Assembly (NCBI GenBank): GCA_027484985.1
Contig: JAIXRW010000029.1
Span: forward strand, 1 to 64,000
Source: Rhodobacter sp.
GTDB taxonomy: Bacteria; Pseudomonadota; Alphaproteobacteria; Rhodobacterales; Rhodobacteraceae
DNA: 64,000 nt
Reading direction: 5' to 3'
The notes under the pieces were generated by a model, which saw nothing but the letters and a program-made list of their open reading frames with translations, was not told the DNA's origin and searched no databases. This document shows positions 6,429 to 35,717 of the stretch, piece after piece (the stretch's first letter is position 1; each line of letters opens with the position of its first letter). Made by a program: the position numbers and the translations under genes.

Positions 6429-6450
6429 TCCTGTTCAGAAAGGCCCCGAG

Positions 6451-18090: not shown

Positions 18091-19194
18091 TTACTGCGCG
18101 ATCAGCGTGGTATCGGCCGGATTCCACGCGACATAGCCCGCCGCCCCCGCCTGAAGCGTGTCACGATACTTGTCGGCATGCCCCTCGAGCGAGACAGCCT
18201 CGCCACTGGGCAGTGTCATTCCGATTTGCAGGATATGCCCGACGAGTTGCAAGCGGTTGATCTGGCAGGGAACCACATTGCCGCCATGCCGTGCCCGCAC
18301 CTCGGCCTCGGACATTGTGCCGGGCAGGACATGCATCGCCTCGGCCGGCAGGACGATCGAGGCTGCCGCCCCCGTGGTGATGGCGCTGGCGGGCGGTTCG
18401 GCCAGCAAGGCGCCAAAGGGCGTGTCAAGGCTGACGGTCCCGCCATCAATATTGCGGACCTTGCCTGAAATCAGCGTGTTGGCCCCGATGAAACGGGCCA
18501 CGAAAATGCTTTGCGGGCGGGTATAAAGCTCGCGCGGGGGGCTGATCTGTTCGATGCGGCCCGCGTTCATCACCACGATCCGATCCGACAGCGCCAAGGC
18601 TTCGGATTGCGCATGGGTCACAAAGACAAAGGTGATGCCAAGGTCGCGTTGCAGCAGCTTCAATTCGTTCTGGATCGATTTGCGCAGGTTGGCGTCAAGC
18701 GCACCCAAGGGCTCGTCCAGCAGCAGGATGTCGGGTTCCACCACCAAGGACCGCGCCAGCGCGATGCGTTGGCGCTGCCCGCCCGAAAGCCGCGTGGGGC
18801 GCACATCCGCCACTTCGGTCAGGCCAAGCTTGTCTAGGATGCGGTCCACCTTGCGGTTCGCCTCGGGCAAGGGCAGGCCCTTTACCTCAAGGCCGAACAT
18901 CACATTCTGGCGCACCGTCATATGTGGAAACAGCGCGTAGTTCTGGAAGATCATCGAGGTGGGGCGCTTTTCGGGTTGCAGGTCATTGACCCGCTTGCCG
19001 CGGATCATCAGATCGCCCGAAGTGATCGATTCGAACCCCGCAATCATGCGCAGCGTCGTGGTCTTGCCGCAGCCCGACGGGCCCAGAAAGGCGATGAATT
19101 CGCCCTTGTCCACGTCAAGGTTGAAATCGATCACGGCAGGTGTGCCGTTGTCGTAAACCTTGCCGATATGCGAAAGCTGCAGGTCGTAGGCCAC
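18091..19194 (-). CDS. ABC transporter ATP-binding protein (PotA-like)
   Basis: [39 protein letters not shown] start about 19194 (start uncertain). Confidence 0.92.
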   Translation of the reverse strand: MAYDLQLSHIGKVYDNGTPAVIDFNLDVDKGEFIAFLGPSGCGKTTTLRMIAGFESITSGDLMIRGKRVNDLQPEKRPTSMIFQNYALFPHMTVRQNVMFGLEVKGLPLPEANRKVDRILDKLGLTEVADVRPTRLSGGQRQRIALARSLVVEPDILLLDEPLGALDANLRKSIQNELKLLQRDLGITFVFVTHAQSEALALSDRIVVMNAGRIEQISPPRELYTRPQSIFVARFIGANTLISGKVRNIDGGTVSLDTPFGALLAEPPASAITTGAAASIVLPAEAMHVLPGTMSEAEVRARHGGNVVPCQINRLQLVGHILQIGMTLPSGEAVSLEGHADKYRDTLQAGAAGYVAWNPADTTLIAQ

Positions 19195-19264
19195 TTGAAA
19201 GTCCCCGGTTGTCGGTTGGGTGCGGCCGGAGCGGGACGCTCCGGCCACGGGTTTCAAATGTCGA

Positions 19265-20485
19265 TCAAGCCGACAGGAATTCGTCCCACTTCGAGATCAG
19301 CAGGTCGTATTCATCCGGCCACTGGTGCCAGTAGGCGACATTCGCTGCACGGGTGGCCAAAGAGCCGCCGTCGCGCAGATCGCCTTCCTTGATGCCGCGT
19401 TCTTCCGCGCCGACCCACGGTGCGCCCTCGTACCAGAAGGCGTACTTTTCGGGGGCCATGACGCCCTTGACCTTGTCGTTGGGCGAATAGTAGCCCTGTT
19501 CCGACACGGCCACCGCCGGACCACCCGACAGCCAGTAATCGGCATAGGCGGTGACAGCATCAAGGTTGGGCGAGGATTTCAGCGCCGAAACGCCGATGGC
19601 CCAGCCGCGATAGCCCGTCTTCATGGTGGCGTAAGAGCACTGGACGCCCTGTGCCTTGACGGCCATGACGGCAGGCTGCCACGCATCGGCAAGGATCATC
19701 TCGCCCGAGGCAAGCAGGTTGACGAGTTCACCGAAATCACCCCACAGGGCGCGGAACTGGCCTTCCTTCTTCTTCGAGATCAGGAACTTTGCCGCTTCTT
19801 CGATGGCCGCCGCATCCGGGTTGCCGGGGTTCTTCACCTCGAGCAGGCCCAGTTCGTTCATGGCCATGACGGCCTGACCAAAGGCGATCAGCGGGTCAAC
19901 GTTCAGGCCGGTCTTGCCCTTGAACTTGGGATCGAACAGCGAGGACCACATCGACGCTTCTTCCGCCGAGACGAGGTCGGGGCGGTAGCCGATCGAGTCA
20001 AAGTTATAGACGGTCGGCACCATGTTCAGCGCCGTCATCGACTCGTCGGTATAGATCTGGCCGACGATCTGGGCCTTGGCGTCCCATTTCGGGTCGGCCT
20101 TGAGGAAGCTTTCCCCGATCCCCGTCCAGTTGGTCAGCGCCGAGGTGGCGATGGGCGACACAAGATCGGTCTGCACGATCGACGGCAGACGCTCGCCAAT
20201 GGTTTCCCAGCAGTCATACGCGGTCGAGCCCGACAAAAGTTCGGTCTGGGTGTTGGGGAAGATATCGGCCTTGCCCGACACGGCCTTGACGCCCGAGGCC
20301 GCCTTGAAGTCTGCCAGAATACGGTCCTGCACCGTCACCGAAAGACCGACGGTCCGCAGTTCCTGCGAGGCGAGGTCGGCGGCAAAGGCCTGTTGCGCGC
20401 CAAAGGGAATACCCCCGGCGGCAAGTGCTGCAACACCCGCAGAACCCTGCAAGAACTTGCGGCGCGATAGCGACATATCTTTCAT
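19265..20485 (-). CDS. extracellular substrate-binding protein (PotD-like), Tat-exported
   Basis: MKDMSLSRRKFLQGSAGVAALAAGGIPFGAQQAFA Tat signal; VPTVYNFDSIGYRPDL; EQGYYSPNDKVK. Confidence 0.92.
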   Translation of the reverse strand: MKDMSLSRRKFLQGSAGVAALAAGGIPFGAQQAFAADLASQELRTVGLSVTVQDRILADFKAASGVKAVSGKADIFPNTQTELLSGSTAYDCWETIGERLPSIVQTDLVSPIATSALTNWTGIGESFLKADPKWDAKAQIVGQIYTDESMTALNMVPTVYNFDSIGYRPDLVSAEEASMWSSLFDPKFKGKTGLNVDPLIAFGQAVMAMNELGLLEVKNPGNPDAAAIEEAAKFLISKKKEGQFRALWGDFGELVNLLASGEMILADAWQPAVMAVKAQGVQCSYATMKTGYRGWAIGVSALKSSPNLDAVTAYADYWLSGGPAVAVSEQGYYSPNDKVKGVMAPEKYAFWYEGAPWVGAEERGIKEGDLRDGGSLATRAANVAYWHQWPDEYDLLISKWDEFLSA

Positions 20486-20541: not shown

Positions 20542-21297
20542 TCAGTAGCGCCCGACGAGCAATCCTCCGTCCACGACCACGACCTGTCCGGTCATGTATC
20601 GGGCGCCGTTGGATGCCAGGAAAAGGATCACATCCGCGATTTCATCCGGCTCGCCAATGCGACCCATCGGGATGAATTCGCCCGCCTTTTCAGCCCCTTC
20701 GGGCCCCAGCGAATGTTCCTTCGATAACAGTTGCGCGGTGCGGATATAGCCCGGCGCCACGCCATTCACGCGGATACCGTCGCGCGCCAGTTCCACCGCA
20801 AGGCCGCGCACCAGCCCCACCACGCCGGCCTTGGCGGCCGAGTAATGCACATGTTCGTCCCAGCCGTAAGCCACGCCCATGATTGACGACAGCGCGACGA
20901 CGGCGCCCTTCTTGCGGGCCTTCATCCCGGCCAAGGCCGGACGGACCACGCGGAAAATGCCCTTCAGGTCGATGTCAAAGGTGTGGTCCCATTTGTCATC
21001 AGTCAGCGCGGGCAAGGGCACCTTGTGGGCGATGCCCGCATTGGCAACGATCACGTCGATCCCGCCCCGTGCGGCCTCGATCCTTGCGACCAGCGCATCT
21101 GCATCGGCGGTCGAACGCACGTCGAGCCGGTGAAATTCGGCACTTCCCCCCGCCGCCGCGATCTCGGCCACGCAGGACTGCCCTTCGGCATCCAGCACAT
21201 CGGTCACGACCACATGATAGCCCGCAGCGGCAAAGGCCTTGGCGGCGGCGCGGCCGATGCCGATGCCGGCACCCGTGATAAGGACGGTTTCGGTCAT
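20542..21297 (-). CDS. SDR family oxidoreductase
   Basis: TGAGIGIGRAAAKAFAAAGYHVVVTD; YSAAKAGVVGLVRGLAVELA. Confidence 0.93.
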   Translation of the reverse strand: MTETVLITGAGIGIGRAAAKAFAAAGYHVVVTDVLDAEGQSCVAEIAAAGGSAEFHRLDVRSTADADALVARIEAARGGIDVIVANAGIAHKVPLPALTDDKWDHTFDIDLKGIFRVVRPALAGMKARKKGAVVALSSIMGVAYGWDEHVHYSAAKAGVVGLVRGLAVELARDGIRVNGVAPGYIRTAQLLSKEHSLGPEGAEKAGEFIPMGRIGEPDEIADVILFLASNGARYMTGQVVVVDGGLLVGRY

Positions 21298-22028
21298 AGC
21301 ATCACATCTCCGGAATTCGGCCCCAGCGTCTGGCCGACGAACAGCGCAGCCGCGGGCGAGCAAAGAAAGGATACGGCTTCGGCCACTTCGTCGGGTTCCC
21401 CGAACCGGCCCAACGGCAGTTCGGCGGCCTTGGCGCGCTGCCAGTCTTGCGACAGGCTTCGCACAAGCGGTGTGTTGATCGGTCCGGGGGCGACCGCATT
21501 CACGCGGATGCCCTGCGCCGACACCTCGCGCGCCAAGGCCTTGGTCATGCCGATGATCCCTGCCTTGGCGGCGGAATAGTGCACCAGTTCAAGCCCGCCG
21601 ATCTGGCCAAGCTGCGAGGCGATGTTGACGATCACCCCCGATTTGCGCGCCAGCATCCCGCCGATCACCGCGCGGCTGCACAGGAACGTGCCGCGCAGAT
21701 GCACCGCGACCATTCGGTCGAAATCCTCGACCGTCAGGTCCTGGAAGCGCGCCTGATGCACATGGCCCGCGCAGTTCACCAGATGCGTCACCGCGCCAAA
21801 GGCAGCCTCGGTTTCCGCGACCATCGCGGCCACGTCATCCGCATCCGATACGTCGCCGCCTAGGCTGCGCGCCTGCGCCCCGATTTCCGCCGCAACGGCA
21901 CTTGCCGCCGCAGCGCGAAAATCATTGACCATTACCTTGTAGCCATCGGCGGCCAGCCGCAGCGCAATGGCCCGACCGATGCCCGACCCTGAACCCGTGA
22001 CAATCGCTGTTCCGGCGGTCCGGGTCAT
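21294..22028 (-). CDS. SDR family oxidoreductase
   Basis: TGSGSGIGRAIALRLAADGYKVMVND; YSAAKAGIIGMTKALA; ATGA overlap with the downstream SDR. Confidence 0.93.
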   Translation of the reverse strand: MTRTAGTAIVTGSGSGIGRAIALRLAADGYKVMVNDFRAAAASAVAAEIGAQARSLGGDVSDADDVAAMVAETEAAFGAVTHLVNCAGHVHQARFQDLTVEDFDRMVAVHLRGTFLCSRAVIGGMLARKSGVIVNIASQLGQIGGLELVHYSAAKAGIIGMTKALAREVSAQGIRVNAVAPGPINTPLVRSLSQDWQRAKAAELPLGRFGEPDEVAEAVSFLCSPAAALFVGQTLGPNSGDVML

Positions 22029-22876
22029 GCAATGTCCTCCTGCATGGCCATTTTCTTGGCACGCCGGACCGACAGCGCCATGAGGATGCCGTAAACCGAC
22101 AACAGCGCAAAGGAAAACAGGGTGGTCAGCACGCCGAAGGCAAAGATGTTGGGATGGATCTCGACCGAGAAGGTGCCGTAGATCGCCAAGGGCAATGTCT
22201 GGTCACGCCCCGAAGCAAACAGCGTGCGCGGAAATTCGTCCAGCGATAGCGTGAAAGCAAACAGCATGGCCGACAGCACGCCCGGAAAGATCAGCGGAAA
22301 GGTCACCTTGCGAAAGGTGGTCCACGGATCAACGCCCAAAGACCACGCCGCTTCCTCGACCGAACTGTCAAAGCGGTTCAGGATCGCCAGCATGACAAGA
22401 AAGGCGAAGGGGAAGGTATAGGCGACATGGGTGGCAAAGGCGGTGGTGTACCAGTGCCGTTCGATCCCGATGATGTTGTTGGCCAGAAGCGATGTGCCCA
22501 GACCGGTCAGCACGCCCGGCACCATCATGCCCAGCACGATCAGGTAAAACACAAAGGTCGAACCCTTGAAACTGCGCCGGAAGGCCTGCGCCGACATCAC
22601 GCCCAGCACGGTGGAAACCACCATTGTCATCAGCGCCAGCACAAGCGACCGGATCAGCGCCTCGCCAAAGGGCAAGGGCGCGATGCGCGACGGCGGGGTC
22701 AGGCCGAAGACCTGACGGTACCAATAGGTTGACCATTCGACGATCGGGAATTGCGGCCCGCCATCCGGCCCCTGCTGGAACGAGATGATCGTCAGCACCA
22801 CGAAAGGACCGTACAGGAACAGCACGAACAGCGCGACGTAAACGCCAAGCGCGGGTTTGATGAAACGCGATTCCAT
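22025..22876 (-). CDS. ABC transporter permease (PotC-like)
   Basis: Hydrophobic; EEAAWSLGVDPWTTFRKVTFPLIFPGVLSAML EAA loop. Confidence 0.92.
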   Translation of the reverse strand: MESRFIKPALGVYVALFVLFLYGPFVVLTIISFQQGPDGGPQFPIVEWSTYWYRQVFGLTPPSRIAPLPFGEALIRSLVLALMTMVVSTVLGVMSAQAFRRSFKGSTFVFYLIVLGMMVPGVLTGLGTSLLANNIIGIERHWYTTAFATHVAYTFPFAFLVMLAILNRFDSSVEEAAWSLGVDPWTTFRKVTFPLIFPGVLSAMLFAFTLSLDEFPRTLFASGRDQTLPLAIYGTFSVEIHPNIFAFGVLTTLFSFALLSVYGILMALSVRRAKKMAMQEDIA

Positions 22877-22879
22877 GGA

Positions 22880-23752
22880 TCAGAGCTCCCGCTTGAGATC
22901 GACGATGCGCAGAAGCCCCGCGATCACGACCCCCATCACGATGGTCAGCACCACCCCCACGACCGAAGCCATGGCCCATTTCAGCGAGCCGACCTGCGTG
23001 ACGATGATGTTGCCCAACAGGTTGACCTTGCGCCCCGACAGCGCGCCCGAGGTGGCAAACTCGCCCAGGACCATGACCGACACGAAGATCGCCCCGACCA
23101 CGACCCCTGGCAGCGACAGCGGGAAAATGATCTTCCAGAAGATGCGCCCGAACCCCGCCCCCAGATCTCGCGCCGCTTCGATGATGTTGCGGTCAATGCG
23201 CGACAGCATAAAGGCGATGGGGCCGACCATGAACACGCAGTAAATCTGCGTCATGCCGATGATGACCGACAGTTCGGTGAACAACAGCACCTCGATCGGT
23301 TGCTGGATGATGCCCAGCTTCAACAGCACGATGTTGATCGCGCCTTCCTTGCCCAGCATCGGGCGCCATGCCAGCACGCGGATCAGGAATGATGTCCAGA
23401 ACGGGATGACACAGACCACCAGAAGCACGGTCGAAAGCGTTTTCGACTTGACGAACAGCCCCACGAAAAGCGCCGTCGGATAGCCCACGATAAAGGTCGT
23501 TGCCAGCACGATCAGCCAGATGCGGATCGTGGTCCAAAGCGAACCGGTATAGGTATCGGACGAGAAGAACTGCTTCCAGCTGGCCAGCGTCGGATCGGAC
23601 GAGATGTTGAAGGTCGTCTGCGTCCAGAACGAGACATAGACGATCATCGCGATGGGCACGACAAGGAACAGCGACATCCATACGATGCCGGGAACCAGCA
23701 GCCAGCGCGTCACTTTCGACTGGCGATCCTGAATGGTGACGGTGCTGCTCAT
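22880..23752 (-). CDS. ABC transporter permease (PotB-like)
   Basis: Hydrophobic; EAARDLGAGFGRIFWKIIFPLSLPGVVVG EAA loop. Confidence 0.92.
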   Translation of the reverse strand: MSSTVTIQDRQSKVTRWLLVPGIVWMSLFLVVPIAMIVYVSFWTQTTFNISSDPTLASWKQFFSSDTYTGSLWTTIRIWLIVLATTFIVGYPTALFVGLFVKSKTLSTVLLVVCVIPFWTSFLIRVLAWRPMLGKEGAINIVLLKLGIIQQPIEVLLFTELSVIIGMTQIYCVFMVGPIAFMLSRIDRNIIEAARDLGAGFGRIFWKIIFPLSLPGVVVGAIFVSVMVLGEFATSGALSGRKVNLLGNIIVTQVGSLKWAMASVVGVVLTIVMGVVIAGLLRIVDLKREL

Positions 23753-24834
23753 ATCGCTGCCTCGCGGCCGAAGACGATGGCCTGTTCCGGGTTCCAGGTC
23801 AGCAGGTAGTCCTGCCTTGGTTCATAGGTTTCGGGGGCGCCAAGGCTCAGATGGTGTTCCATCTCGATCAGATGGCCCTGCCCTGCATCGAAAAAGCTCA
23901 TGATCGACGATCCGAGATATTCCGAAGCGATGTATGTGGCCTTCAGCGCCGGGCCGTCGGCAGGCTTTGCCGACAGGGGAAGAACCTTCACGCGGTCATA
24001 GCGAACGGCATAACAATCGCGGTCGGCGCGGGTGGCCGCGGGGGCACGGATCGTGCCGAAACTTGCCGAAAAACTGCCGTTCGACAGCGTCCCCTCGAAC
24101 AGATTGAATCGGTTCAGGAAATGCGCGACATCGGGCGAAGCGGGGCGGTCATAGATTTCGCCCGGCGTACCGGTCTGGATGATGGTGCCACGGTCCAGCA
24201 CGACAACGCGGTCGCCCATCGCCAAGGCCTCGGTCTCGCTGCCGGTTACGTGCAGGAAGGTCACGCCCAGCCGTTCGCGGATCGCCCGCAACTCGTTTCG
24301 CATCCGCGACCGCAGGTTTGCATCCAAAGCGCCAAGCGGTTCGTCCAGCAAGACAAGCCGCGGCTTCATCGCCAGCGTGCGCGCCAAGGCCACGCGCTGG
24401 CGCTGGCCACCGGAGATCTGGTCAACGCCGCGCCCTTCCATGCCCGAAAGGCCGACAAGTTCGATCATCTCGGCCGCGCGGCCTTCAGCCTCGGGGGTCG
24501 GCACGCGGGTTTTGCCGTTGGTCAGGCCAAAGGCAACGTTCTGCATAACCGTCAGATGCGGAAACAGCGCGAAGTTCTGGAAAACAAAGCCGATTCCGCG
24601 TTCATGCGCCTGAACGTTCGTGATATCGCGCCCGTCGAAAAAGATGCGCCCCGTCTCGGGCGCCTCGAACCCGGCAATGACCCGCAGCAGCGTTGTCTTG
24701 CCCGATCCGGACGGGCCAAGGAACGACAGGTATTCGTTCGCCCCGACTTCGAGCGACGCATCGTTAAGCGCGACCAAATCGCCGTAGCGCTTGGTCACGC
24801 CTTCCAGTCTGAAGACCGACGTGTCCACTGTAAC
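23749..24834 (-). CDS. ABC transporter ATP-binding protein (PotA-like, second ATPase)
   Basis: [39 protein letters not shown] start about 24834 (ATG at 24873 also possible). Confidence 0.9.
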   Translation of the reverse strand, partial: VTVDTSVFRLEGVTKRYGDLVALNDASLEVGANEYLSFLGPSGSGKTTLLRVIAGFEAPETGRIFFDGRDITNVQAHERGIGFVFQNFALFPHLTVMQNVAFGLTNGKTRVPTPEAEGRAAEMIELVGLSGMEGRGVDQISGGQRQRVALARTLAMKPRLVLLDEPLGALDANLRSRMRNELRAIRERLGVTFLHVTGSETEALAMGDRVVVLDRGTIIQTGTPGEIYDRPASPDVAHFLNRFNLFEGTLSNGSFSASFGTIRAPAATRADRDCYAVRYDRVKVLPLSAKPADGPALKATYIASEYLGSSIMSFFDAGQGHLIEMEHHLSLGAPETYEPRQDYLLTWNPEQAIVFGREAAI

Positions 24835-25089
24835 CTCGCCTGGAGTTCGATCCGCCCTCGTGGGGTGGATCATTTTTCTTGGTTCACACCGAGGTATGCA
24901 TCCGTGCACATAGCTAACGGTGAAAACTGTACTTCGTATAACATAGGTGATTTTCACACCTGTCAACTGGTTATTAAATTACGGAATTACGCTTTTTTGG
25001 GCAAGTTAATCAATAAACAGCCCAGTTTCCGCGCAGAAAGCGAAGCGCCTCATGCGGAATGTTATGAATATTGCGTACTGTATTCGTCT

Positions 25090-26073
25090 TTATTGCGGGC
25101 TCAGATAGGGCGCGAAAGAACCGGTTTCGTCGATCACCGCCACGATCTTCATCCGCGCCAGATAGCGCCGCGCGGTGATCGACAGGTGGTAGCGCAGATA
25201 TTCACACGCGGAATCAATGGGATGGTGCGTGATCAGATCAAGCAGGGTCTGGTATTGCTCGATCGTATCCTCGTCCCGCGGCAGGCCCAGCAGGATCAGC
25301 GCGCGGTCCACGGATGACAAAAGCAGGCGGTTTGACCGGATCATCTCGACCAAGGCTGCGTTTGGTGCCTGCGCAATACAAAGTTCAAGCAGCGCATCGC
25401 CAAGGTATTGGGGGGTGATCTCGGGATCGGTGCCGATCCGGCCCAGCAGGGCCTCGACTTCGGCATAACGGATATGCGGGCCGGCAAGCCGCAGGGCCGC
25501 GGGCTCCATGATCTCGCGCAGCTGGAACTTGTCACTGACGGTGCGCGCCGTCAGTGGCCCCGCAATCCAGTGCGAGCTAGGGCTTTTGCGCACCAGCCCG
25601 CGTTCCTGCAACCGCGCCAGCACATCGCGCACCACCGTGCGGCTGACACCCAAATGATCGGCCAGTTCGGTTTCGACGATTCGGAACTCGCCGAAAATCT
25701 GGCAAGAGGCCACCTCGTCCTCGACCTTGTCATAGACATGGCGCCATGTGCCGCGCGTTTGCAGCGCCTGATCGACGACCTGCGGAATATCCAGATCAAG
25801 CTCGCGGATGTCGCGCCGGATCGGAACGACCGCTTCGCCGCCCTTGCCCACCAGATAGCCGCGCCCGTCAAAACGGTGGATCAGCCCCTCGTCCAGCAAC
25901 TGGCGCAAGGCCGATTGCACCGGAACGCGGCTGGTCTGCATCACCGCCGCAATCGGCCCTTCCAACAGCACGAAACCCGGCGGCAGCACGCCCGACAGGA
26001 TGTTTTCGCGCAGCACGCGCCCGATCAGTTCATAGCGCGGCTCTTGTGCAAGGGGGTTAACCGACCGGATCAT
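25090..26073 (-). CDS. GntR-family regulator with two wHTH domains and C-terminal FCD-like domain
   Basis: First wHTH YELIGRVLRENILSGVLPPGFVLLEGPIAAVMQTSRVPVQSALRQLLDEGLI; second WRHVYDKVEDEVASCQIFGEFRIVETELADHLGVSRTVVRDVLARLQERGLV. Confidence 0.85.
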   Translation of the reverse strand: MIRSVNPLAQEPRYELIGRVLRENILSGVLPPGFVLLEGPIAAVMQTSRVPVQSALRQLLDEGLIHRFDGRGYLVGKGGEAVVPIRRDIRELDLDIPQVVDQALQTRGTWRHVYDKVEDEVASCQIFGEFRIVETELADHLGVSRTVVRDVLARLQERGLVRKSPSSHWIAGPLTARTVSDKFQLREIMEPAALRLAGPHIRYAEVEALLGRIGTDPEITPQYLGDALLELCIAQAPNAALVEMIRSNRLLLSSVDRALILLGLPRDEDTIEQYQTLLDLITHHPIDSACEYLRYHLSITARRYLARMKIVAVIDETGSFAPYLSPQ

Positions 26074-27302
26074 GCCGCCACCCCCTGATTGACGCGGCGC
26101 ACGAACCGTTCCCATGCCCGCGCGGCATAGTTGTATTCGTCCATGACCGTGTTCCAGATCACGATGCGCCGCGCCCTGTCGATATAGGGGCCGCCCGCCC
26201 GCCGCTCGCCCGTCTTGACGACAATGGCGCCGTCCGGCCCGGCCAGATCGCGCGGGGCGGCCGCCCCTTCGTACCAATAGGCCCATTCCTCGGGTGCCAG
26301 CCATTCCCGCGTCCGCTGCGGGTTCGAGATGTAATAGCCCTGCCGCGCCATTACCGCCCCGGCATAGCCCGACAGCCACCAGTTCAGATATTCATAGGCC
26401 ATGTCGAGTTCCGCGCCGCGCAGATGGCGCGACAGGCTGGCGCCGCCATGCCACGCGCGATAGCCCTCGGACGGGGCCGATTCCACGAAATGCTGGCGCG
26501 CCTTGCCCAGCTTGCCATAGACCGGCGACCACATGCTTTGCACCGCGACCTTGCCGCCTTCGGCCAGATCGGCCGCTTCGATCCCGTCGCGCCATGTGCC
26601 GCAGAAATAGCCTTCGACACGGCGGTCTTCCAGCAGCGCCATCAGGGCGTTGATCTCTTCGATGGTCATGTTGCCGATATCGGCAAATTCGATCTCGCCG
26701 GTCGCCTCGGCGGCAAGCGCCGCGTCGAAAAAGCCGATGGCGGGTTCGTCCACCAGCGCGATCCGCCCCTTGGCCCGCCGGTCCAGCAGCCAGGCCCAGC
26801 TTGGCCGCACATCCGGCCCGGTACCGAAAACGCGGGCATCGTAGCCAAAACTGTCCATGTTATGCACGGTGGGCAGCATGCTGATATAGCGGGTCGGTTT
26901 CGGCCCAAGAAACCCGCCCGGCTGCACATACAGCTTCTTGGCCGGCGCATCCCCCCGCCCCCGCCCCGCGTATTTGCTGACACCGCCCAGCTTTACGAGG
27001 TCAGAGACATTGTCCCATTCCGGCACGCGCCCGATATCGATGGGCTGCAAGGCGCCCCAGAACCACACGATATCAAGGTTGTGGAAGCACTGTTCATAGA
27101 CATCGTAACTGTCGGGCTGCATTGCGGCCCAACGCTGGCAGGTCGGGAAATCCTTCTTCTCGAAGGCGATGTCAAAACCCAGATCGGCCCGCGCCCTTTC
27201 GCGGACAGGGTCAACCAGGGTGATCGAGGTTCCCAGCACCCGCAACCTGCGACGCGGGACCACAAGCGGCGTTGCAAGTTGGGGTTTCGTGTCGTCCTGC
27301 AT
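26070..27302 (-). CDS. PotD-like substrate-binding protein paralog without an evident signal peptide
   Basis: LPTVHNMDSFGYDARVF and YLNWWLSGYAGAVMARQGYYISNPQ...EWAYWYEGA match the SBP at 19265-20485; N-terminus MQDDTKPQLATPLVVPRRRLRVLG is not a signal peptide. Confidence 0.85.
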   Translation of the reverse strand: MQDDTKPQLATPLVVPRRRLRVLGTSITLVDPVRERARADLGFDIAFEKKDFPTCQRWAAMQPDSYDVYEQCFHNLDIVWFWGALQPIDIGRVPEWDNVSDLVKLGGVSKYAGRGRGDAPAKKLYVQPGGFLGPKPTRYISMLPTVHNMDSFGYDARVFGTGPDVRPSWAWLLDRRAKGRIALVDEPAIGFFDAALAAEATGEIEFADIGNMTIEEINALMALLEDRRVEGYFCGTWRDGIEAADLAEGGKVAVQSMWSPVYGKLGKARQHFVESAPSEGYRAWHGGASLSRHLRGAELDMAYEYLNWWLSGYAGAVMARQGYYISNPQRTREWLAPEEWAYWYEGAAAPRDLAGPDGAIVVKTGERRAGGPYIDRARRIVIWNTVMDEYNYAARAWERFVRRVNQGVAA

Positions 27303-27366: not shown

Positions 27367-28338
27367 TTAGACCAGCGCGGCACCGATGGCGTCAAACACA
27401 GCCTTGCGATCGTGACGCGCCTGAATCGCCTCGTCCATCGTCACCTTAACAAAACGCGTGGGCGTATGGGGCTGCAATTGCCCGATCAGGTCCATATCGG
27501 CGGAAACCACCGTGCCAAGCATGAAATACCCCCCGCCCGAAACCGCATCGCGGTGCAGCACGATGGGTTCGGTCCCACCGGGCACCTGCACCGACCCATA
27601 GGGATAGCAGGCATCCACGATGTTCGACGGGTCAGACCCCGCACCAAAGGGCTGATCGCGCGCCACGAATTCAAGCGGATGCCCCGCCTTGAACCGGTAT
27701 CCGATGCGGTCCGCTTCGGGGGCGACCTTCCATGTATCGTCAAAAAAGGTCTTGCCGGCCGCTTCGGTGATCCGGTGCCAATAAAGGCCCGGCAACATCC
27801 GCAATTCGGCGGGCAGGCCCGGCTTGCGGCGCAGCGCATCGGGCAGGCTGCGCCCTTCGGCCACGGCATGGCCTGCCCCGACCGGCAGCGCATCGCCCGC
27901 TTCCAGCTTGCGGCCCTTGAACCCGCCCAGCGCCCCCAGCGTATAGGTGGACCGCGATCCCAGCACGACAGGCACGTCGATGCCGCCCGACACGGCGATA
28001 TAGGCCCGCGCCCCTGCCCTGAGGAAGCCGAACGACAGGACCTGCCCCTTTTTCACCTTGAACGCGGTCCAGCCTGCCCGTTCGTCGCCATCCACCTTGG
28101 GCGGCATGTCGGCGCCGGTCACGGCGACCATGGCATCGGCGGTAAATTCCAACTCCGGCCCAAGGAACACCGCTTCAAGCACCGCAGCGCCCGCATCATT
28201 GCCAACCAGCAGGTTCGCCGCCGCCAAGGACAGCGTGTCCATCCCGCCCGAGGTGGGAATGCCCAGATGGTAATAGCCCGGACGGCCAAGGTCTTGCACC
28301 GTTGTCGAAAGGCCCGGCTTGATGACATTAATGGCCAT
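27367..28338 (-). CDS. pxpC: 5-oxoprolinase subunit C-like / biotin-dependent carboxyltransferase family (KipA)
   Basis: MAINVIKPGLSTTVQDLGRPGYYHLGIPTSGGMD. Confidence 0.92.
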   Translation of the reverse strand: MAINVIKPGLSTTVQDLGRPGYYHLGIPTSGGMDTLSLAAANLLVGNDAGAAVLEAVFLGPELEFTADAMVAVTGADMPPKVDGDERAGWTAFKVKKGQVLSFGFLRAGARAYIAVSGGIDVPVVLGSRSTYTLGALGGFKGRKLEAGDALPVGAGHAVAEGRSLPDALRRKPGLPAELRMLPGLYWHRITEAAGKTFFDDTWKVAPEADRIGYRFKAGHPLEFVARDQPFGAGSDPSNIVDACYPYGSVQVPGGTEPIVLHRDAVSGGGYFMLGTVVSADMDLIGQLQPHTPTRFVKVTMDEAIQARHDRKAVFDAIGAALV

Positions 28339-29203
28339 TGAGAGCCTCCATGATACGCGCGTTTGTCCCGTCGATATCCTTCTGGAATTCCGACAGCGAG
28401 AAGGTCACAGGCGCGATGCGCGGCATCCAGCGGCCGGCATCCACCTCGGCAACGGTGTGGTCATATTCGGCGCGGTCGATCGGCTTCCATTTCACGATAT
28501 CGCCGGGGCTGAACAGGCACATGAAGTCGCGCAGATAGGGAACCGTCTGGTTAGGGTCATAGATCGGCATCGGGGTAATGCCGAACATCTGGTAGCCCCC
28601 CGCCCCCCGCACGGAATAGATGCAGGCAAAGCAGCCGCCATGCCCCACGGTCAGCCGCGGCGTATCGGTGCGCGGGCGCAGATATTTGGGCGACTGGATC
28701 TGCCGCTTGCGGTCAACCATCTGGTAAAGGAAGGGCAGACCCGCGACGAAACCTACCATCGACACGAACCACGGCGCACCCGAATGGGCCTTTACGAACC
28801 CGTCCACCCCGTCAAGGTTGTTGATCCGTGCCGTGTATTCGATATCGGTCGAGGTCGGGTCCTGATGGCGTTCGCGAAAGCGCATCAGCGTCTCGTGCGT
28901 CCATGGATCGTTGTAGAGCACCGGCACTTCGATGATCCGCGTCTGCAAGGTCGAAGGGGCCGCCTGCGCCGCCGCTTCGAGCGCCTTCAATTCGGCCATC
29001 ATCGCGTCGGGCGAGATCACGTCGGGATCGAAACGCACCTGAAACGAGGCATTGGCAGGGCAAATCTCGGTCACGCCCCTGATCTTGGCCTCGCGCAGGG
29101 CGCTGGTGATCGACATGCCCTTGAAAAAGGCTTCGAGCGACATTTCCTCATCACATTCGACAAAGATATGTTCGTCGCCGCCAAAGGAGTATCTGGTCGT
29201 CAT
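28328..29203 (-). CDS. pxpB: 5-oxoprolinase subunit B-like (KipI / carboxyltransferase domain 1)
   Basis: GFVAGLPFLYQ, GHGGCFACIYSVRGAGGYQMFGITPMPIYDP. Confidence 0.9.
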   Translation of the reverse strand: MTTRYSFGGDEHIFVECDEEMSLEAFFKGMSITSALREAKIRGVTEICPANASFQVRFDPDVISPDAMMAELKALEAAAQAAPSTLQTRIIEVPVLYNDPWTHETLMRFRERHQDPTSTDIEYTARINNLDGVDGFVKAHSGAPWFVSMVGFVAGLPFLYQMVDRKRQIQSPKYLRPRTDTPRLTVGHGGCFACIYSVRGAGGYQMFGITPMPIYDPNQTVPYLRDFMCLFSPGDIVKWKPIDRAEYDHTVAEVDAGRWMPRIAPVTFSLSEFQKDIDGTNARIMEALNGH

Positions 29204-30576
29204 TTCGGGGTCTCCTCAAGCCGGTGTGCGTTCCGCTCAAGCCAGGGTTCCAGCCAGCGCGTGTGGAAATCGGCCCGCGCCACATCGGCATCGCGGGCAA
29301 GGGCCATGTGCAGGGGCCGCGTGGTGGGCAGGCCTTCGACCGCCAGTTCGTCAAGCGCCCGCGCCATGCGGGCAAGCGCCGCGGGACGGTCCTCATCCCA
29401 GACAATCAGCTTGCCCAGAAGCGAGTCGTAAAAGGGCGGCACGGTGTAGCCCTGATACAGCATGGTATCGAAACGCACCCCCGCCCCCCCGGGAACCCGC
29501 AGCGCCGCAACCGTGCCGGGTGCGGGCTGGAACCCCTTGGACGGGTCTTCGGCGCAAATCCGCACTTCGATGGCATGGCCTTTCAGGCGGATGTCCTCTT
29601 GCCGGTAGCGCAACGGTTCGCCCCCTGCGATGCGGATCATCTCGCGCACGAGGTCAAGGCCCGTGACCATTTCGGTGACGGGATGTTCGACCTGAATCCG
29701 GGTGTTCATCTCGATGAAGTAGAACTGCCCCGAGGCATCGTCATACAGGTATTCCAGCGTTCCCGCGCCGCGATAGCCCACCGCTTCGGCCAGGGCGACC
29801 GCCGAGGCGCACAGCCTTTCGCGCATCGCCTGCGGCAGGCTGGCCGAGGGCGCTTCTTCCCACACCTTCTGCCGCCGCCGTTGCAGCGAACATTCCCGTT
29901 CGAAGCAATGCACCGCCCGCGAGCCGTCGCCCAGCACCTGCACCTCGATATGGCGGGCGCGTTCGATGACCTTTTCCATATACAGGCCGCCATCGCCAAA
30001 GGCGGCTTTCGCCTCGGCGCTGGCCTGCGGCATGAGGCGTTCGAATTCTTCCAAGTCATGGGCTATGCGGATGCCACGGCCGCCCCCGCCCGCCGCCGCC
30101 TTGATCATCACCGGAAAACCGATGGAAAGCGCCAAGGCCCGGGCCTGATCGGGGTCGTCGATGCGGCCATCCGATCCGGGCACCACCGGCACGCCCGCTG
30201 CCTTGGCGGCGATGCGGGCGGCGACCTTGTCGCCCATCACGCGGATGCTGTCGCCCTTGGGCCCGACCCAGACCATACCCGCCGCTTCCACCGCATCGGC
30301 AAAATCGGCGTTTTCTGCCAGAAAGCCATAACCCGGATGCACCGCATCAGCCCCTGTCTGCCGCGCGGCTTCAAGGATCGCGTCGATCTTCAGGTATGAT
30401 TTCGACGCCGCAGGCGGCCCGATCGGCACCGCCTCGTCCGCCAGTTTCACCGCCAGACTGTCGGCATCGGCAAGGCTGTGCACCTGCACCGTGGCAAGGC
30501 CCAACTCCTTGGCCGCGCGGATGATCCTGACCGCGATCTCGCCCCGGTTGGCGACGAGAAGTTTCCTGATCGCCAT
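29200..30576 (-). CDS. biotin carboxylase (AccC-like)
   Basis: KLLVANRGEIAVRIIRAAKELGLATV; AAGGGGRGIRIA; FIEMNTRIQVEHPVTEMVTGLDLV. Confidence 0.96.
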   Translation of the reverse strand: MAIRKLLVANRGEIAVRIIRAAKELGLATVQVHSLADADSLAVKLADEAVPIGPPAASKSYLKIDAILEAARQTGADAVHPGYGFLAENADFADAVEAAGMVWVGPKGDSIRVMGDKVAARIAAKAAGVPVVPGSDGRIDDPDQARALALSIGFPVMIKAAAGGGGRGIRIAHDLEEFERLMPQASAEAKAAFGDGGLYMEKVIERARHIEVQVLGDGSRAVHCFERECSLQRRRQKVWEEAPSASLPQAMRERLCASAVALAEAVGYRGAGTLEYLYDDASGQFYFIEMNTRIQVEHPVTEMVTGLDLVREMIRIAGGEPLRYRQEDIRLKGHAIEVRICAEDPSKGFQPAPGTVAALRVPGGAGVRFDTMLYQGYTVPPFYDSLLGKLIVWDEDRPAALARMARALDELAVEGLPTTRPLHMALARDADVARADFHTRWLEPWLERNAHRLEETPK

Positions 30577-30579
30577 TGT

Positions 30580-30816
30580 TCAGCCCAACTCGACCAGCGG
30601 CTGACCGGCCATCACGGGTTCTTCATCATCGGCCGGAAAGGCCGTGATCACGCCCGCCTGATCGGCGGCGACTTCGTTGAACGATTTCATCACCTCGATC
30701 AACCCGATCACGTCGCCCACCGCCACGGTGTCGCCCACCTCCTTGTATGCGGGCTTGTCGGGCGCGGGGCGGCGATAGAACGTGCCGGGCAGCGGGGAAA
30801 GAATTTGCTTGGCCAT
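30580..30816 (-). CDS. biotin carboxyl carrier protein
   Basis: 78 aa, biotinylation motif IEVMKSFNEV. Confidence 0.93.
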   Translation of the reverse strand: MAKQILSPLPGTFYRRPAPDKPAYKEVGDTVAVGDVIGLIEVMKSFNEVAADQAGVITAFPADDEEPVMAGQPLVELG

Positions 30817-30835
30817 TGTCTTGTCCTTTTCGGTT

Positions 30836-31555
30836 TCAGGCTGCCGCTTTCACCGCAGAGCGCACCGCTTGGGCGACCTGAACGGCATTCGGCGTGTCAG
30901 AGTGAACGCAAATCGCATCGGCGCGGACGGCGACATCGACACCGCCAACCGACCGCACCACGCCCTCGCGCATCGCCCGCAGACAGGCGGCGGCGGCGGC
31001 GGCCGGATCGGTGGCCGCATGTTCGCGCGTGATGATAAGACCGCCCTGATCATTGTAATCAAGATCGGCATAGAATTCCGACACGAAGGCATGGCCCCGC
31101 GCGGTATAGACGGTTTCGTGCAGCGTGCCGGCCATCCCGTAAAGCGGCACGCGGAAGATATCGGCCACATCGGCCATGGCATGGGCCACATCCTCCATCC
31201 GCGCGGCCATGCCATAGAGCGACCCGTGCGGCTTGATGTGGTTCAGTTCGACCCCTTCGGCCTGCAAAAAGCCCTTCAGCGCGCCGATCTGGTAGATCAT
31301 GCAGTTGACCAGTTCCTCGCGCCCGATCTTCATCTCGCGCCGGCCAAAGCCCTGAAGGTCGGGCAAGGACGGATGCGCCCCCACCTTGACGCCGCACCGC
31401 TTGGCAAGCTGGACGGTCCGGCGCATGTGGTTGAAATCCGACGCATGAAAACCGCAGGCCACATTGGCCACATCGATCAGCGGCATCAGCCCTTCGTCAT
31501 CGCCAATGCGGTAAAGACCGAAGCCTTCGCCCATATCGCAGTTGATGATGGTCAT
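30836..31555 (-). CDS. pxpA: LamB/YcsF family protein (5-oxoprolinase subunit A-like)
   Basis: INCDMGEGFGLYRIGDDEGLMPLIDVANVACGFHASD; GAHPSLPDLQGFGRR. Confidence 0.94.
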   Translation of the reverse strand: MTIINCDMGEGFGLYRIGDDEGLMPLIDVANVACGFHASDFNHMRRTVQLAKRCGVKVGAHPSLPDLQGFGRREMKIGREELVNCMIYQIGALKGFLQAEGVELNHIKPHGSLYGMAARMEDVAHAMADVADIFRVPLYGMAGTLHETVYTARGHAFVSEFYADLDYNDQGGLIITREHAATDPAAAAAACLRAMREGVVRSVGGVDVAVRADAICVHSDTPNAVQVAQAVRSAVKAAA

Positions 31556-33645
31556 GCCGCGGCCCCCCCGCCCGTGTAATCCAGCAGATAGACACCGGTT
31601 TCCGTCAGCTCCGCCGTCCAGCCCGGTTCGACCACCAAGGTGGTGGTCACTTCCTCGATCACCGCGGGGCCGACGATCCGGTCGCCTGCGCCCAGCTTGG
31701 CGCCGGAATAGACGGGCGTTTCGCGCGGCGTGCCGTCTGCAGCAAAGATCATCGACCGCGTTCCGGCCTGTGCCGCGGCAGCACCCGTTCCCTTGGCAAT
31801 GGTCATGCGGCGGGGTTTGTCCACCCGGCCCGAGATGGCACTTTCGACATTCACCACCTCGACCATGCTTGCCGGTTCGGAATAGGTGTAAAGCTCTTCG
31901 TGGCGCGCGTGGAAGGCCGCCTTCAACCGTTCAAGCGCGGCCTCGTCCAGCGGGAAGGGGTCAACATCGACCGTGCATTCATGCACCTGACCGACATAGC
32001 GCATGTCAAGGCTGCGGCGCACCGAGATGCGGTCCTCGGTAAAGCCGTCCTTGGTCAGGTCGTCCCGGCCACGCGTTTCCAGCCCCTTGAACAGCCCGTC
32101 AAGTTTTGCTGCCGCCGCCGCCCCTTCCAGCCGGACGGGCGCGGGCGCCATGTAGTTGTATTTCACGTCCGAAATGATCTGCCCATAAGCACACAGCCCC
32201 GATGCGAGTTTCGAGACCAGAACCCGCGTGATCCCCATCTCGCGGGCCAGCGCCGTGATATGCGCCCCCGTCGCCCCGCCCGCGCAGTTCAGCACGAAAT
32301 CGCGCGGGTCATAGCCCCGTTCGACCGACACGCGGCGGATGGCATTGACCATGTTGTTGTTCACGATCGTGAACATACCATAAGCCGCCTGTTCCACGCT
32401 CAGACCCAGCGGTTGGGCAAGATGGGTCGCAATCGCCTTGGTCGCCTTTTGCACGGCCAGCGGCAAACGCCCCCCCACCAGACCATCGGGGTTCAGATAG
32501 CCCAGCACCAGATTGGCATCCGTGGTCGTCGGCTTCTCGCCGCCTTGGTCATAGGAGGCAGGCCCCGGTTCCGACCCCGCCGATTGCGGGCCCATCTGCA
32601 ACAGTCCCATCGAGTCGATCCAGCCGATCGACCCGCCGCCTGCGCCCAGTGTTTCGACCTGGATCATCGGAATCCCGATGCGATAGCGCAGGAAGTCGAT
32701 GTTTTTCGACACATTCGCCCGCCCGTCCCGCGTCAGCGTGATGTCAAAGGACGTACCGCCCATATCGACCGTGATGATGTTCTTCAGCCCCCACGGCTCT
32801 CCGATATACAGCGCCGCCTGCGGGGCCGAGGCGGGGCCCGAGTTGATGGCATAGACCGACTGGTCCGATACCACCGACCCCAGCGCCAGCCCGCCGTTCG
32901 ACTGGAAATACCGCACGGGGTTCTTGGCACCAAGGCTGCGGAAATAGCCGTCCACCGCTTCGACATAGCGCGACAGGATGGGGGCAAGATAGGCGTTCAC
33001 GATGGCGGTCGAGGTGCGGGTATATTCGCGCACCTGCGGATAAAGCAGGCTGCCCACGGTCAGCCGCACGCCCGGCATCATCTCGCGGACGATTTCGGCG
33101 GCGCGCAATTCGTGGTCGGGGTGCAGCACCGACCACACAAAGCTGATGGCAACTGAATCCACCCCCTCGCGCAGGAAATGGCGGCAGGCGTCACGCACGT
33201 CATCCTCGTGCAGCGGGGTATGGACGGCCCCCGTGGAAACCACCCGCTCGCGCACGCCGCGCCGCAGGTAGCGCGGCACCAGCATGCGGGCGGGCGGGTA
33301 TTCGGGATCGTAGCGATAGCCGTCCTCTTTATGGCCCAGACGGATTTCAATGCTGTCCTCGTGCCCTGCCGTGGCGATCAGCCCCGTGCGCGCCCCCTTG
33401 TGCTGGATCAGCGCGTTCAGGCCCACGGTCGTGCCGTTGATGCACAGATCAGCGTTCGACACGATCTCGGTCGCGGTGATGCCCGTTTCCTCTTCGATCA
33501 GCGCAAGCCCGTTGCGGATGGCTTGGGTCGGGTCTTGCGGGGTGGACAGCGCCTTGAAGATCCGCACCTCGCCATTGCGGTCGGCAAGGATGAAGTCGGT
33601 AAAGGTGCCGCCGGCATCGATGCCAAGACGATAGGTGTTCTGCAT
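31552..33645 (-). CDS. hydantoinase/oxoprolinase family protein, HyuA type
   Basis: YRLGIDAGGTFTDFILAD; NGTTVGLNALIQHKGARTGLIAT; VDMGGTSFDITL. Confidence 0.95.
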   Translation of the reverse strand: MQNTYRLGIDAGGTFTDFILADRNGEVRIFKALSTPQDPTQAIRNGLALIEEETGITATEIVSNADLCINGTTVGLNALIQHKGARTGLIATAGHEDSIEIRLGHKEDGYRYDPEYPPARMLVPRYLRRGVRERVVSTGAVHTPLHEDDVRDACRHFLREGVDSVAISFVWSVLHPDHELRAAEIVREMMPGVRLTVGSLLYPQVREYTRTSTAIVNAYLAPILSRYVEAVDGYFRSLGAKNPVRYFQSNGGLALGSVVSDQSVYAINSGPASAPQAALYIGEPWGLKNIITVDMGGTSFDITLTRDGRANVSKNIDFLRYRIGIPMIQVETLGAGGGSIGWIDSMGLLQMGPQSAGSEPGPASYDQGGEKPTTTDANLVLGYLNPDGLVGGRLPLAVQKATKAIATHLAQPLGLSVEQAAYGMFTIVNNNMVNAIRRVSVERGYDPRDFVLNCAGGATGAHITALAREMGITRVLVSKLASGLCAYGQIISDVKYNYMAPAPVRLEGAAAAAKLDGLFKGLETRGRDDLTKDGFTEDRISVRRSLDMRYVGQVHECTVDVDPFPLDEAALERLKAAFHARHEELYTYSEPASMVEVVNVESAISGRVDKPRRMTIAKGTGAAAAQAGTRSMIFAADGTPRETPVYSGAKLGAGDRIVGPAVIEEVTTTLVVEPGWTAELTETGVYLLDYTGGGAAA

Positions 33646-33663: not shown

Positions 33664-35418
33664 TCAGGCAGCGGTTGCGCGCAGGGCGGCGGTGGCAGCC
33701 GCATCGACCGCCAGCGTGTCGCGGTCGGTGATCACCACGCCATAGTCGAGCCGCGCCCCTTCAAGGCTGACCAGACCGTTCCTCACATCCTCGACCACTT
33801 TTTGCACATCGCGTTCAAAGGCGTTGCCATAGCCCCCGCCGCCGGGGTTCTTGTTGGCGGCGCGCTCTCCGGGCTGGATGGTTTCGATCACGTTGTCGGT
33901 GATGATCTGGGTCGCGCCGTTGCGGGTGACTTCCAGTCGCCCGACCTTTTTCGACACCATGGCCGATTTCGCCCCCGCCGCCCCCATCGCCGGAATCCGC
34001 CGCCCCTCGCCAAAGGTGATCAGCGTCATCGGTGTATCTAGTGGTTCAACCTCCCAGCAGGTGCCGGACCCGCCGCGGTTCTTGCCCGCACCGCCGCTGT
34101 CTTCCATCAGCGAATAGCGGTGGATGATGATCGGATAGCTGTGTTCCAGCATCTCGATATCGCCGCTGGTCAGGGCGCCAAAGCAGCATTCCGGCCCCAC
34201 CGCGTGCCAGCCATCCGCCTGTGCCGTGGCCCCCGCCCCCGAGATGATCGAGGCCAGCACCATGGTCACATATTCCTCGTCATGGCGCTTGTCCCAGCCT
34301 GCGATGTTGCAGCCATTGGCATGGCCCCAGCTTGCCGAAACCTTGTGCGGGGCGGCCTGTTCAAAAGCCAGACGCACCGCATCGGTCAGGGTTTCCATCG
34401 GGGTCGTGGTGCAGTTCATATGCGGCGCAGGGGATTTGGCGTTGCACAGCGTCCCCTTCGGCCCCATGTCGGTGCTGACACAGCGATAGAGCCCCTCGTT
34501 ATAGGGCGGCGGCAACTGGGCGAACATCATCAGCCCCAGATACACGCCCGAATGGCTGTTTCCTTCGTAGCTGTTGATGAAATAGGGAATTTGCGGCGGC
34601 GACTGGATGGCGATATGGCAGCCATCGCCCTTGATCGTCACGGTGGCGGTAATCTCGAAATCGCCATAACCATGGCCCGCATCCTCAAGGATCGCGGTGC
34701 CGGTATAGGTGCCATCGGGCACTTCCGCGATCAGGGACCGCATGTGGTGTTCGGCCATGTCCAGCAGTTCCGCGATGCAGTCCTGCACCATCGCCTTGCC
34801 ATAGCGGTCCATCAGCCGCTTGAGGTTGCGCGCCCCCACCTGACAGGCCCCGATCAGCGCGTTGAAATCGCCTTCCTGGTCGCGGCGCGCGCGCATGTTG
34901 GACAGGATCATGTTCATCACATCATGACGCGGCTTGCCCTGATCCCAGATCTTGATCGGCGGGATACGCAGCCCTTCGGCATAAATCTCGGTCGCGTTGG
35001 GGTTATAGCCCGCAGGCACAGGCCCGCCGATATCGGTCAGGTGGCCCTTGCACACCGTCCAGAACACCAGTTCGCCCTCATAGAACACGGGCATGTACAT
35101 GCAGGTGTCGATGATATGCGACCCGCCATAGGACGGATCGTTGTGCAGCATCAGATCGCCATCATGGATGTCGCCTTCGAAATACTTGGCCACCGATTTC
35201 ATCGCCGGGATCAGACTGCCCAGATGGATCGGAATGTCCTGCCCCTGCAAAATCATCTCGGGCGCGTGGTTGAACAGGGCGGTCGAATAGTCATGGGCAA
35301 GGTTGAACACCGACGACCGCGCGGTCTGTTCCAGCGCAAGGGTCATCTCGCGCTGGGTGGTCTCAAGGACCCCCCGCACCACCGAAAGCGTGATCGGATC
35401 GACGTTCCGTTTGGCCAT
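33664..35418 (-). CDS. hydantoinase B/oxoprolinase family protein, HyuB type
   Basis: MAKRNVDPITLSVVRGVLETTQREM...NDPSYGGSHIIDTCMYMPVF...NPGGGGYGNAFERD. Confidence 0.94.
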   Translation of the reverse strand: MAKRNVDPITLSVVRGVLETTQREMTLALEQTARSSVFNLAHDYSTALFNHAPEMILQGQDIPIHLGSLIPAMKSVAKYFEGDIHDGDLMLHNDPSYGGSHIIDTCMYMPVFYEGELVFWTVCKGHLTDIGGPVPAGYNPNATEIYAEGLRIPPIKIWDQGKPRHDVMNMILSNMRARRDQEGDFNALIGACQVGARNLKRLMDRYGKAMVQDCIAELLDMAEHHMRSLIAEVPDGTYTGTAILEDAGHGYGDFEITATVTIKGDGCHIAIQSPPQIPYFINSYEGNSHSGVYLGLMMFAQLPPPYNEGLYRCVSTDMGPKGTLCNAKSPAPHMNCTTTPMETLTDAVRLAFEQAAPHKVSASWGHANGCNIAGWDKRHDEEYVTMVLASIISGAGATAQADGWHAVGPECCFGALTSGDIEMLEHSYPIIIHRYSLMEDSGGAGKNRGGSGTCWEVEPLDTPMTLITFGEGRRIPAMGAAGAKSAMVSKKVGRLEVTRNGATQIITDNVIETIQPGERAANKNPGGGGYGNAFERDVQKVVEDVRNGLVSLEGARLDYGVVITDRDTLAVDAAATAALRATAA

Positions 35419-35660
35419 TCCCGTCTCCTGTTGCTGCCGATTGCCAGCCACAGGCCAGCCGCCCGCGCCCGAAGGCGGGGGAATGGCGGTCTTTCCCCGT
35501 TGCTGGCCGAATCCCGGCCTTATCCTTATTGTCGGTCAGGTTGCCCCCTTCGCCGCCGCCCGTCTTGACGCCCAGCGCACAAGCATTTGTCATCCAGCGC
35601 GCCCGGCGACGGCGGCAGCGCCATCTGCGGCAAAGGGGCAGGTGACTTGGCGGTCTGGAA

Positions 35661-35690
35661 TTGACTTCCCGCCCGCAAGGACGATGTTAC
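35661..35690 (+). promoter_or_regulatory. predicted promoter for the araC-type gene (TTGACT-N18-TGTTAC)
   Basis: -35 TTGACT at 35661-35666, 18-nt spacer, -10-like TGTTAC at 35685-35690, upstream of GTG start at 35718. Confidence 0.45.
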
Positions 35691-35717
35691 AGGGATGCGA
35701 CATGGGCGGACGCGAAC

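Follow-up and report, generated by a model that had tools for sequence, protein, structure and literature searches.

A predicted cytosolic solute-binding protein paired with a tandem winged-helix GntR regulator in Rhodobacter: a candidate two-protein metabolite switch

LysR-type regulators and AraR join, in a single chain, a winged helix-turn-helix (wHTH) to a periplasmic-binding-protein fold, and the cyanobacterial NrtC and CmpC carry a cytosolic domain resembling a solute-binding protein (SBP), fused to an ABC ATPase and acting on transport. FCD domains of the FadR type are able to sense without a metal. To our knowledge, SBPs are regarded as extracytosolic by definition. Their use as co-sensors of histidine kinases is established, for example in the CuaD-CuaS-CuaR system of Ruminiclostridium cellulolyticum (PMC10384115). 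An SBP survey mentions cytosolic proteins of the SBP fold with other functions, and these were put aside there for manual curation (PMC9602780). In the FCD regulator TM0439, the metal ligands are His134, His174 and His196 (PMC4746285).

The locus analyzed here lies in a 64,000-nucleotide stretch of a Rhodobacter sp. contig (JAIXRW010000029.1; hereafter, the window) and consists of an SBP-like gene, sbpL, that overlaps the gene of a GntR-type regulator. Like CuaD-CuaS-CuaR, this pair may employ an SBP as the sensor for a separate regulatory protein controlling the matching uptake operon; unlike that system, sbpL lacks a signal peptide and is paired with a GntR-type DNA-binding protein of the cytosol instead of a membrane kinase. 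The kinase gene that adjoins the SBP gene in three-component systems is missing beside sbpL in the window, and is found beside the SBP genes of its sister clade. The regulator resembles members of the FadR/VanR subfamily (TM0439, VanR Atu1419, PmiR, CitO) in combining a wHTH with an FCD bundle, but it has two wHTHs per chain and a constant SBP-like partner, and the FCD metal site is degenerate in most of the sbpL-linked members. A binding-protein fold controlling a cytosolic wHTH domain would be analogous to LysR-type regulators and AraR; however, sbpL is a full-length protein of its own with an exported receptor as its ancestor, the two genes overlap instead of being fused, and the DNA-binding partner keeps its own FCD domain. 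The entire type II SBP fold is shared with PotF/YdcS/PotD-type ABC receptors, whereas the export signal and the tie to an ABC transporter are not. As with the NrtC/CmpC domain, sbpL would be an SBP-derived module in the cytosol, although free-standing and tied to a regulator. In the open-access literature, to which the search was confined, we found no pairing of a cytosolic SBP with a GntR regulator and no tandem-wHTH GntR regulator, so these negatives are weak. We consider it probable (roughly 0.6) that the two proteins act together as a metabolite switch, with sbpL as the ligand sensor or co-regulator in the cytosol.

The features of the locus are the following (window coordinates):

26070–27302, minus strand: sbpL, 410 residues, predicted cytosolic SBP-fold (PotF/YdcS-like, type II) protein without a signal peptide
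25090–26073, minus strand: regulator, GntR-wHTH + GntR-wHTH + FCD, 327 residues
26070–26073, minus strand: ATGA overlap of the sbpL stop and the regulator start
25849–26037, minus strand: regulator wHTH 1 (residues 13–75), from Pfam and the AlphaFold model
25561–25752, minus strand: regulator wHTH 2 (residues 108–171), the best conserved segment, from the alignment and the model
25138–25548, minus strand: regulator FCD helical bundle (residues 176–312), from the model
24924–24943, minus strand: predicted operator TGTTATACGAAGTACAGTTT, from a motif scan; sole high-scoring site in the 64 kb window
25071–25090, plus strand: second site resembling the operator, low-scoring (6.9), at the regulator stop, from the motif scan
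24936–24966, minus strand: likely promoter of the transporter operon, TTGACA-17-TGTTAT; overlaps the predicted operator
23749–24966, minus strand: ABC ATPase, gene 1 of the presumed target operon; ORF from an upstream TTG, start probably further downstream
22880–23752, minus strand: ABC permease 1, by synteny; named from sequence
22025–22876, minus strand: ABC permease 2, by synteny; named from sequence
21294–22028, minus strand: SDR oxidoreductase
20542–21363, minus strand: SDR oxidoreductase (long ORF)
19265–20485, minus strand: Tat-exported SBP of the adjacent transporter, distant sbpL homologue (28%)
18091–19257, minus strand: second ABC ATPase (long ORF), by synteny; named from sequence
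16737–18086, minus strand: amidase (PF01425)
27367–28338, minus strand: PxpC-like carboxyltransferase A/B
28328–29203, minus strand: PxpB-like carboxyltransferase C/D
29200–30576, minus strand: biotin carboxylase (AccC-like)
30836–31555, minus strand: PxpA-like LamB/YcsF protein
31552–33645, minus strand: hydantoinase/oxoprolinase A (HyuA)
33664–35451, minus strand: hydantoinase B/oxoprolinase (HyuB)

The coordinates that a sequence-only reading had given for the regulator and sbpL are exact. The pair is flanked by a catabolic cluster, with the HyuB, HyuA, PxpA-like, biotin carboxylase and PxpB-/PxpC-like genes upstream and the ABC transporter, two SDRs, the Tat-exported SBP, the second ATPase and the amidase downstream, and this arrangement is shared by numerous Rhodobacteraceae and Hyphomicrobiales. 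A gap (30577–30835) separates the biotin carboxylase gene from the PxpA-like gene, at a place where one would look for the gene of a small biotin carrier. Upstream of hyuB and divergent from it, a plus-strand ORF (35661–36677) looks AraC-type and may be a second regulator, controlling the upstream half of the cluster.

No Pfam family was matched by sbpL, which shows a weak match to YdcS; a profile search retrieved YdcS and PotF. Its model (pLDDT 89.7) is a complete two-lobed type II SBP whose best structural matches are PotF, YdcS and PotD (Foldseek E about 1e-17), with about 15–18% identity to receptors of this type. The first 17–24 residues are polar and unconserved. A twin-arginine followed by a hydrophobic stretch was found in none of the 62 sbpL orthologues (about 65 overall), upstream in-frame starts included, whereas all 19 exported alphaproteobacterial relatives scored identically have it; the claim that this protein has no evident signal peptide was thus confirmed. 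The in-frame extension of sbpL to 27395 is polar and enters the upstream gene, and this, together with the count in the orthologues, rules out a signal peptide on the longer ORF. A cytosolic location is well supported by these sequence comparisons. sbpL has the fold of a type II SBP, but not its export, nor its ABC permease partner, since it persists near MFS transporters with no ABC permease match. Fifty-seven alignment columns are conserved among the cytosolic, kinase-linked and ABC-linked forms, which argues for a working SBP core in sbpL. The residues invariant specifically in the cytosolic forms include Cys72, His74 and Asn75.

The sequence-only reading had described sbpL as a clear paralog of the adjacent Tat-exported SBP (19265–20485). 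Distant homology between the two stands (28% identity, E 6e-35), but a close relationship does not, as they fall in different clades in our trees, which also rule out a recent duplication of the adjacent SBP as the origin of sbpL. With so distant a relationship, paralogy does not imply a shared ligand, and the proposal that it reads the ligand imported by the transporter is plausible from gene context only. Identity to Tat-exported SBPs from other ABC operons is 32–40%, and the closest exported relatives (43–48%) belong to other classes within the phylum. Each of the 17 closer sister proteins that were fetched carries a Tat-like signal, and no ABC permease match was present within the 10–12.5 kb fetched around the 17 loci. 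The genes adjoining the exported sisters were histidine kinases in nine of the ten cases scanned, most of them hybrid with receiver domains, and a HAMP-PAS protein in the remaining one. All cytosolic forms group in a single clade (95/84), whose sister is the kinase-linked one, and the tree requires a single signal loss. Since the sister clade is Tat-exported, kinase-linked and without ABC permeases, these data suggest that a signalling SBP ceased, a single time, to be exported and that it now partners a GntR regulator; the nearest exported kin of sbpL are predicted to be signalling SBPs rather than transport SBPs.

Loci L101–L114 and L118–L120 encode these Tat-exported SBPs beside large, mostly hybrid histidine kinases, and apparently represent an SBP-kinase sensor family of other proteobacterial classes. 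The possibility that every strong sbpL match is a cytosolic sbpL was ruled out: the matches without a regulator, at 1e-98 to 1e-161, were Tat-exported where fetched.

For the regulator, Pfam detected two GntR stretches (PF00392, E 1.8e-21, 76 bits vs. a cut-off of 27); the FCD score, 22.8, was just under the cut-off of 24.3, which was exceeded in the relatives L055, L073 and L117. The AlphaFold model (pLDDT 86, pTM 0.62) contains two complete wHTH folds (residues 13–75 and 108–171) N-terminal to a six-helix FCD bundle, and the nearest solved folds are PmiR, VanR Atu1419 and TM0439. The presence of two GntR-like wHTHs ahead of an FCD-like region, proposed from the sequence, was therefore borne out by Pfam and the model, and a single true wHTH was ruled out. 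Both wHTHs are conserved in 49 aligned sequences, the second being nearly invariant. The protein has the GntR-type N-terminal wHTH and the all-helical C-terminal FCD of the FadR group, but two DNA-binding domains where that group has one; it belongs to a tandem-wHTH sub-branch of the FCD GntR group and is not a canonical member. The tandem wHTH is a trait of a wider subfamily, of which 13 further members were found without sbpL (L073–L079 and L095–L100); several of these adjoin SDR genes.

The stop codon of sbpL and the start codon of the regulator overlap as ATGA (−4), and this overlap is kept in 44 of the 46 loci with the same gene order, far above chance, in agreement with the coupling noted from the sequence. 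The exceptions are L043, with an overlap of 10, and L020, in which sbpL is broken. In the latter, a metagenome-assembled locus, sbpL (5389–6564, 391 residues) stops before its usual end, and the overlap was lost because the frame ends early; it is reported as either a pseudogene or an assembly error. At the genome level, 26 of the 27 genomes with a full-length cytosolic sbpL carry the tandem-wHTH regulator. The order sample (296 genomes) contributed 16 genomes with cytosolic sbpL, 15 of them with the regulator; the class sample added one (G390), where both genes are convergent; seven more with both genes lie behind the fetched loci; and the phylum sample supplied three, all with the regulator. 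The L056 genome, where sbpL is reduced to a C-terminal fragment and the regulator is missing, is outside this count. The regulator was absent from the phylum-sample genomes with exported sisters, and exported relatives are without it at their locus. In the single exception, G214 (L121, 14902–16095), a lone cytosolic sbpL is surrounded by transposase- and integrase-like ORFs, and the rest of the cluster is absent. It is likely a relic of a deleted cluster, and we dismissed it as a counter-example on account of its isolation among transposase-like genes. The conserved co-occurrence that had been proposed as a check on the pairing was thus observed in both the genomes and the overlaps.

The pair was found in five layouts: overlapping sbpL-regulator, regulator-sbpL (L069), convergent (L085), divergent adjacent (L055) and at the cluster ends (L080, L081). 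It also persists with four kinds of transporter, namely the window ABC system, a different Tat-SBP ABC system (L069), a Bmp-type SBP cluster (L055) and MFS transporters (L116, L117). Its occurrence beside MFS transporters and without ABC permease matches rules out that sbpL is a transporter subunit. The distances of regulator and sbpL correlate across 44 loci (r = 0.97), although such co-divergence can stem from common evolutionary rates. The partial correlation of regulator and sbpL given the transporter SBP is 0.85, and that of regulator and transporter SBP given sbpL is 0.30. The partnership is well supported by these comparative data, and the association within conserved clusters could partly mirror cluster inheritance. 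Two further loci deserve mention. In L115–L117, sbpL and the regulator are accompanied by an amidase, an MFS transporter and SDRs in place of the ABC system, with a CobW-type GTPase immediately upstream of sbpL. In L050, the sbpL cluster is in a record titled Mycobacterium sp. KBS0706, but its genes group with alphaproteobacterial ones, so a mislabelled record or a transfer is likely.

Motif discovery on 28 regulator-transporter intergenic regions revealed a 20-bp asymmetric motif, approximately TTkcATACnnnnnnCATTTT, with a log-likelihood of 261 vs. 67–72 in dinucleotide shuffles. The window site (24924–24943, minus strand) scores 26.7, and the next best in the 64 kb scores 13.2. In loci L004–L056, 56 of 61 sites lie between the regulator and the ATPase of the transporter operon, a count to be read with the caveat that the motif was trained on the same intergenic regions where most sites were then counted. 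In L069, outside the training set and with another transporter, two sites (17.5 and 15.5) were found next to the regulator; sites adjoin the regulator in L115 and L116 as well, and L085 has no motif match. A second, weaker site near the regulator stop is common in relatives. Such an asymmetric motif would suit a chain with two unlike heads. The TTGACA-17-TGTTAT element has a −10 box matching the consensus at four of six positions and is absent from the promoter-scan list; since the predicted operator overlaps this putative −10, repression is the simplest reading.

By profile alignment, His134, His174 and His196 of TM0439 correspond to regulator residues 229, 274 and 296. The three histidines plus acidic ligand of metal-dependent FCD sensors (TM0439/LldR type) are not present in the window regulator, where positions 225/229/274/296 are G/L/Y/H; that is, His229 is replaced by Leu and His274 by Tyr, and His296 is kept. 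Given that His296 is kept and that FadR-type FCDs can sense metal-free, the domain may still bind an effector. The E225-H229-H274-H296 set is intact in all 13 tandem-wHTH regulators without sbpL; in those with sbpL (n = 60), H229 is retained in 2 and H274 in 4. The full site coexists with sbpL only in L055, L085 and L115–L117, all deep branches of the partnership, and in these five regulators sbpL is therefore no mere replacement of the FCD site. The regulator tree, built without L115–L117, has one change in the full site; loss being one evolutionary event, its association with sbpL counts as one observation and not as statistical proof. The order of events that fits these alignments and trees would be the tandem regulator first, then acquisition of sbpL, then loss of the FCD site.

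A different role for sbpL in the same gene context would be that of a cytosolic carrier or buffer that passes the imported substrate to the amidase and the carboxylase, while the regulator senses through its FCD and the coupling reflects co-expression only. This is unlikely, but it has points in its favor: the catabolic clusters around sbpL include amidase, SDR, PxpABC and hydantoinase genes, the FCD His296 is kept, and the deep members retain the full FCD site. However, it is the regulator that stays the same while the enzymes change from locus to locus: PxpABC or Hyu genes are missing near sbpL in several loci, and L069 is without any of the window enzymes nearby. The linkage of the sister lineage to histidine kinases indicates signalling, and the FCD effector site has decayed in most sbpL-linked regulators. 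It is more doubtful still that sbpL is a pathway enzyme, a type II SBP fold turned catalytic in the cytosol. The SBP superfamily does include cytosolic proteins that serve other functions (PMC9602780), and Cys72, His74 and Asn75 are among the cytosolic-specific invariant residues, but the best fold matches are all PotF/YdcS-type transport receptors, no known enzyme family was matched, and sbpL tracks the regulator and no fixed enzyme set. It is very improbable that sbpL works on the transporter from the cytosol and, like the SBP-like domain of NrtC, slows uptake at high internal substrate: sbpL clusters with an ABC transporter in most loci, but it persists with MFS or other transporter types (L055, L115–L117), and the gene it overlaps is that of the regulator and not of any transporter component. 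That sbpL, having a receptor fold, is exported anyway as a second transporter receptor, by hitch-hiking on the Tat-exported SBP or from an overlooked start, is barely credible, because upstream starts give no signal in any orthologue, L115–L117 have sbpL without any ABC permease match, and the sister proteins all retain their own Tat signal.

The intracellular sensor or co-regulator role that had been suggested from the sequence is supported by the position of the sister clade beside histidine kinases, the co-travel of the pair across unrelated transporters and the loss of the FCD site, although it is a role that we still infer. As a possible mechanism, an SBP would have lost its Tat signal once, and sbpL would fold in the cytosol, keeping the conserved SBP core. 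Its ligand would be a small molecule that the linked pathway takes up or produces, and sbpL, in its open or closed form, would dock on the tandem-wHTH/FCD regulator. With its two different wHTHs, the regulator would occupy the asymmetric 20-bp operator at the −10 region of the transporter operon and would most likely keep that operon repressed until ligand-bound sbpL lifts the repression. In the main lineage, the FCD metal/effector site would have decayed because sensing moved to sbpL. The predicted cytosolic form, the two wHTHs, the overlap, the near-obligatory partnership, the putative operator and the loss of the FCD site are supported by comparative and modelling evidence; physical contact, ligand binding, the direction of control and the identity of the ligand are elements that we infer. 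A gene content that includes amidase, hydantoinase/oxoprolinase, PxpABC and deacetylase-like genes suggests, with low certainty, that the ligand is an amide, a cyclic amide or a related compound.

The chances seem to us about even that the pair represents a new class of switch, in which a full SBP from kinase co-sensor kin, moved to the cytosol, would be an obligate sensor subunit for a GntR regulator with tandem wHTHs, which acts on an asymmetric operator through two different DNA-binding heads and has mostly lost its own effector site. A conserved cytosolic SBP lineage bound to one transcription factor would mean that a receptor changed both its compartment and its output partner. The regulators form a natural series (intact FCD without sbpL, intact with sbpL, decayed with sbpL) for testing the transfer of sensing. 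If true, this would be a modular route for attaching SBP specificity to transcription, useful for biosensors.
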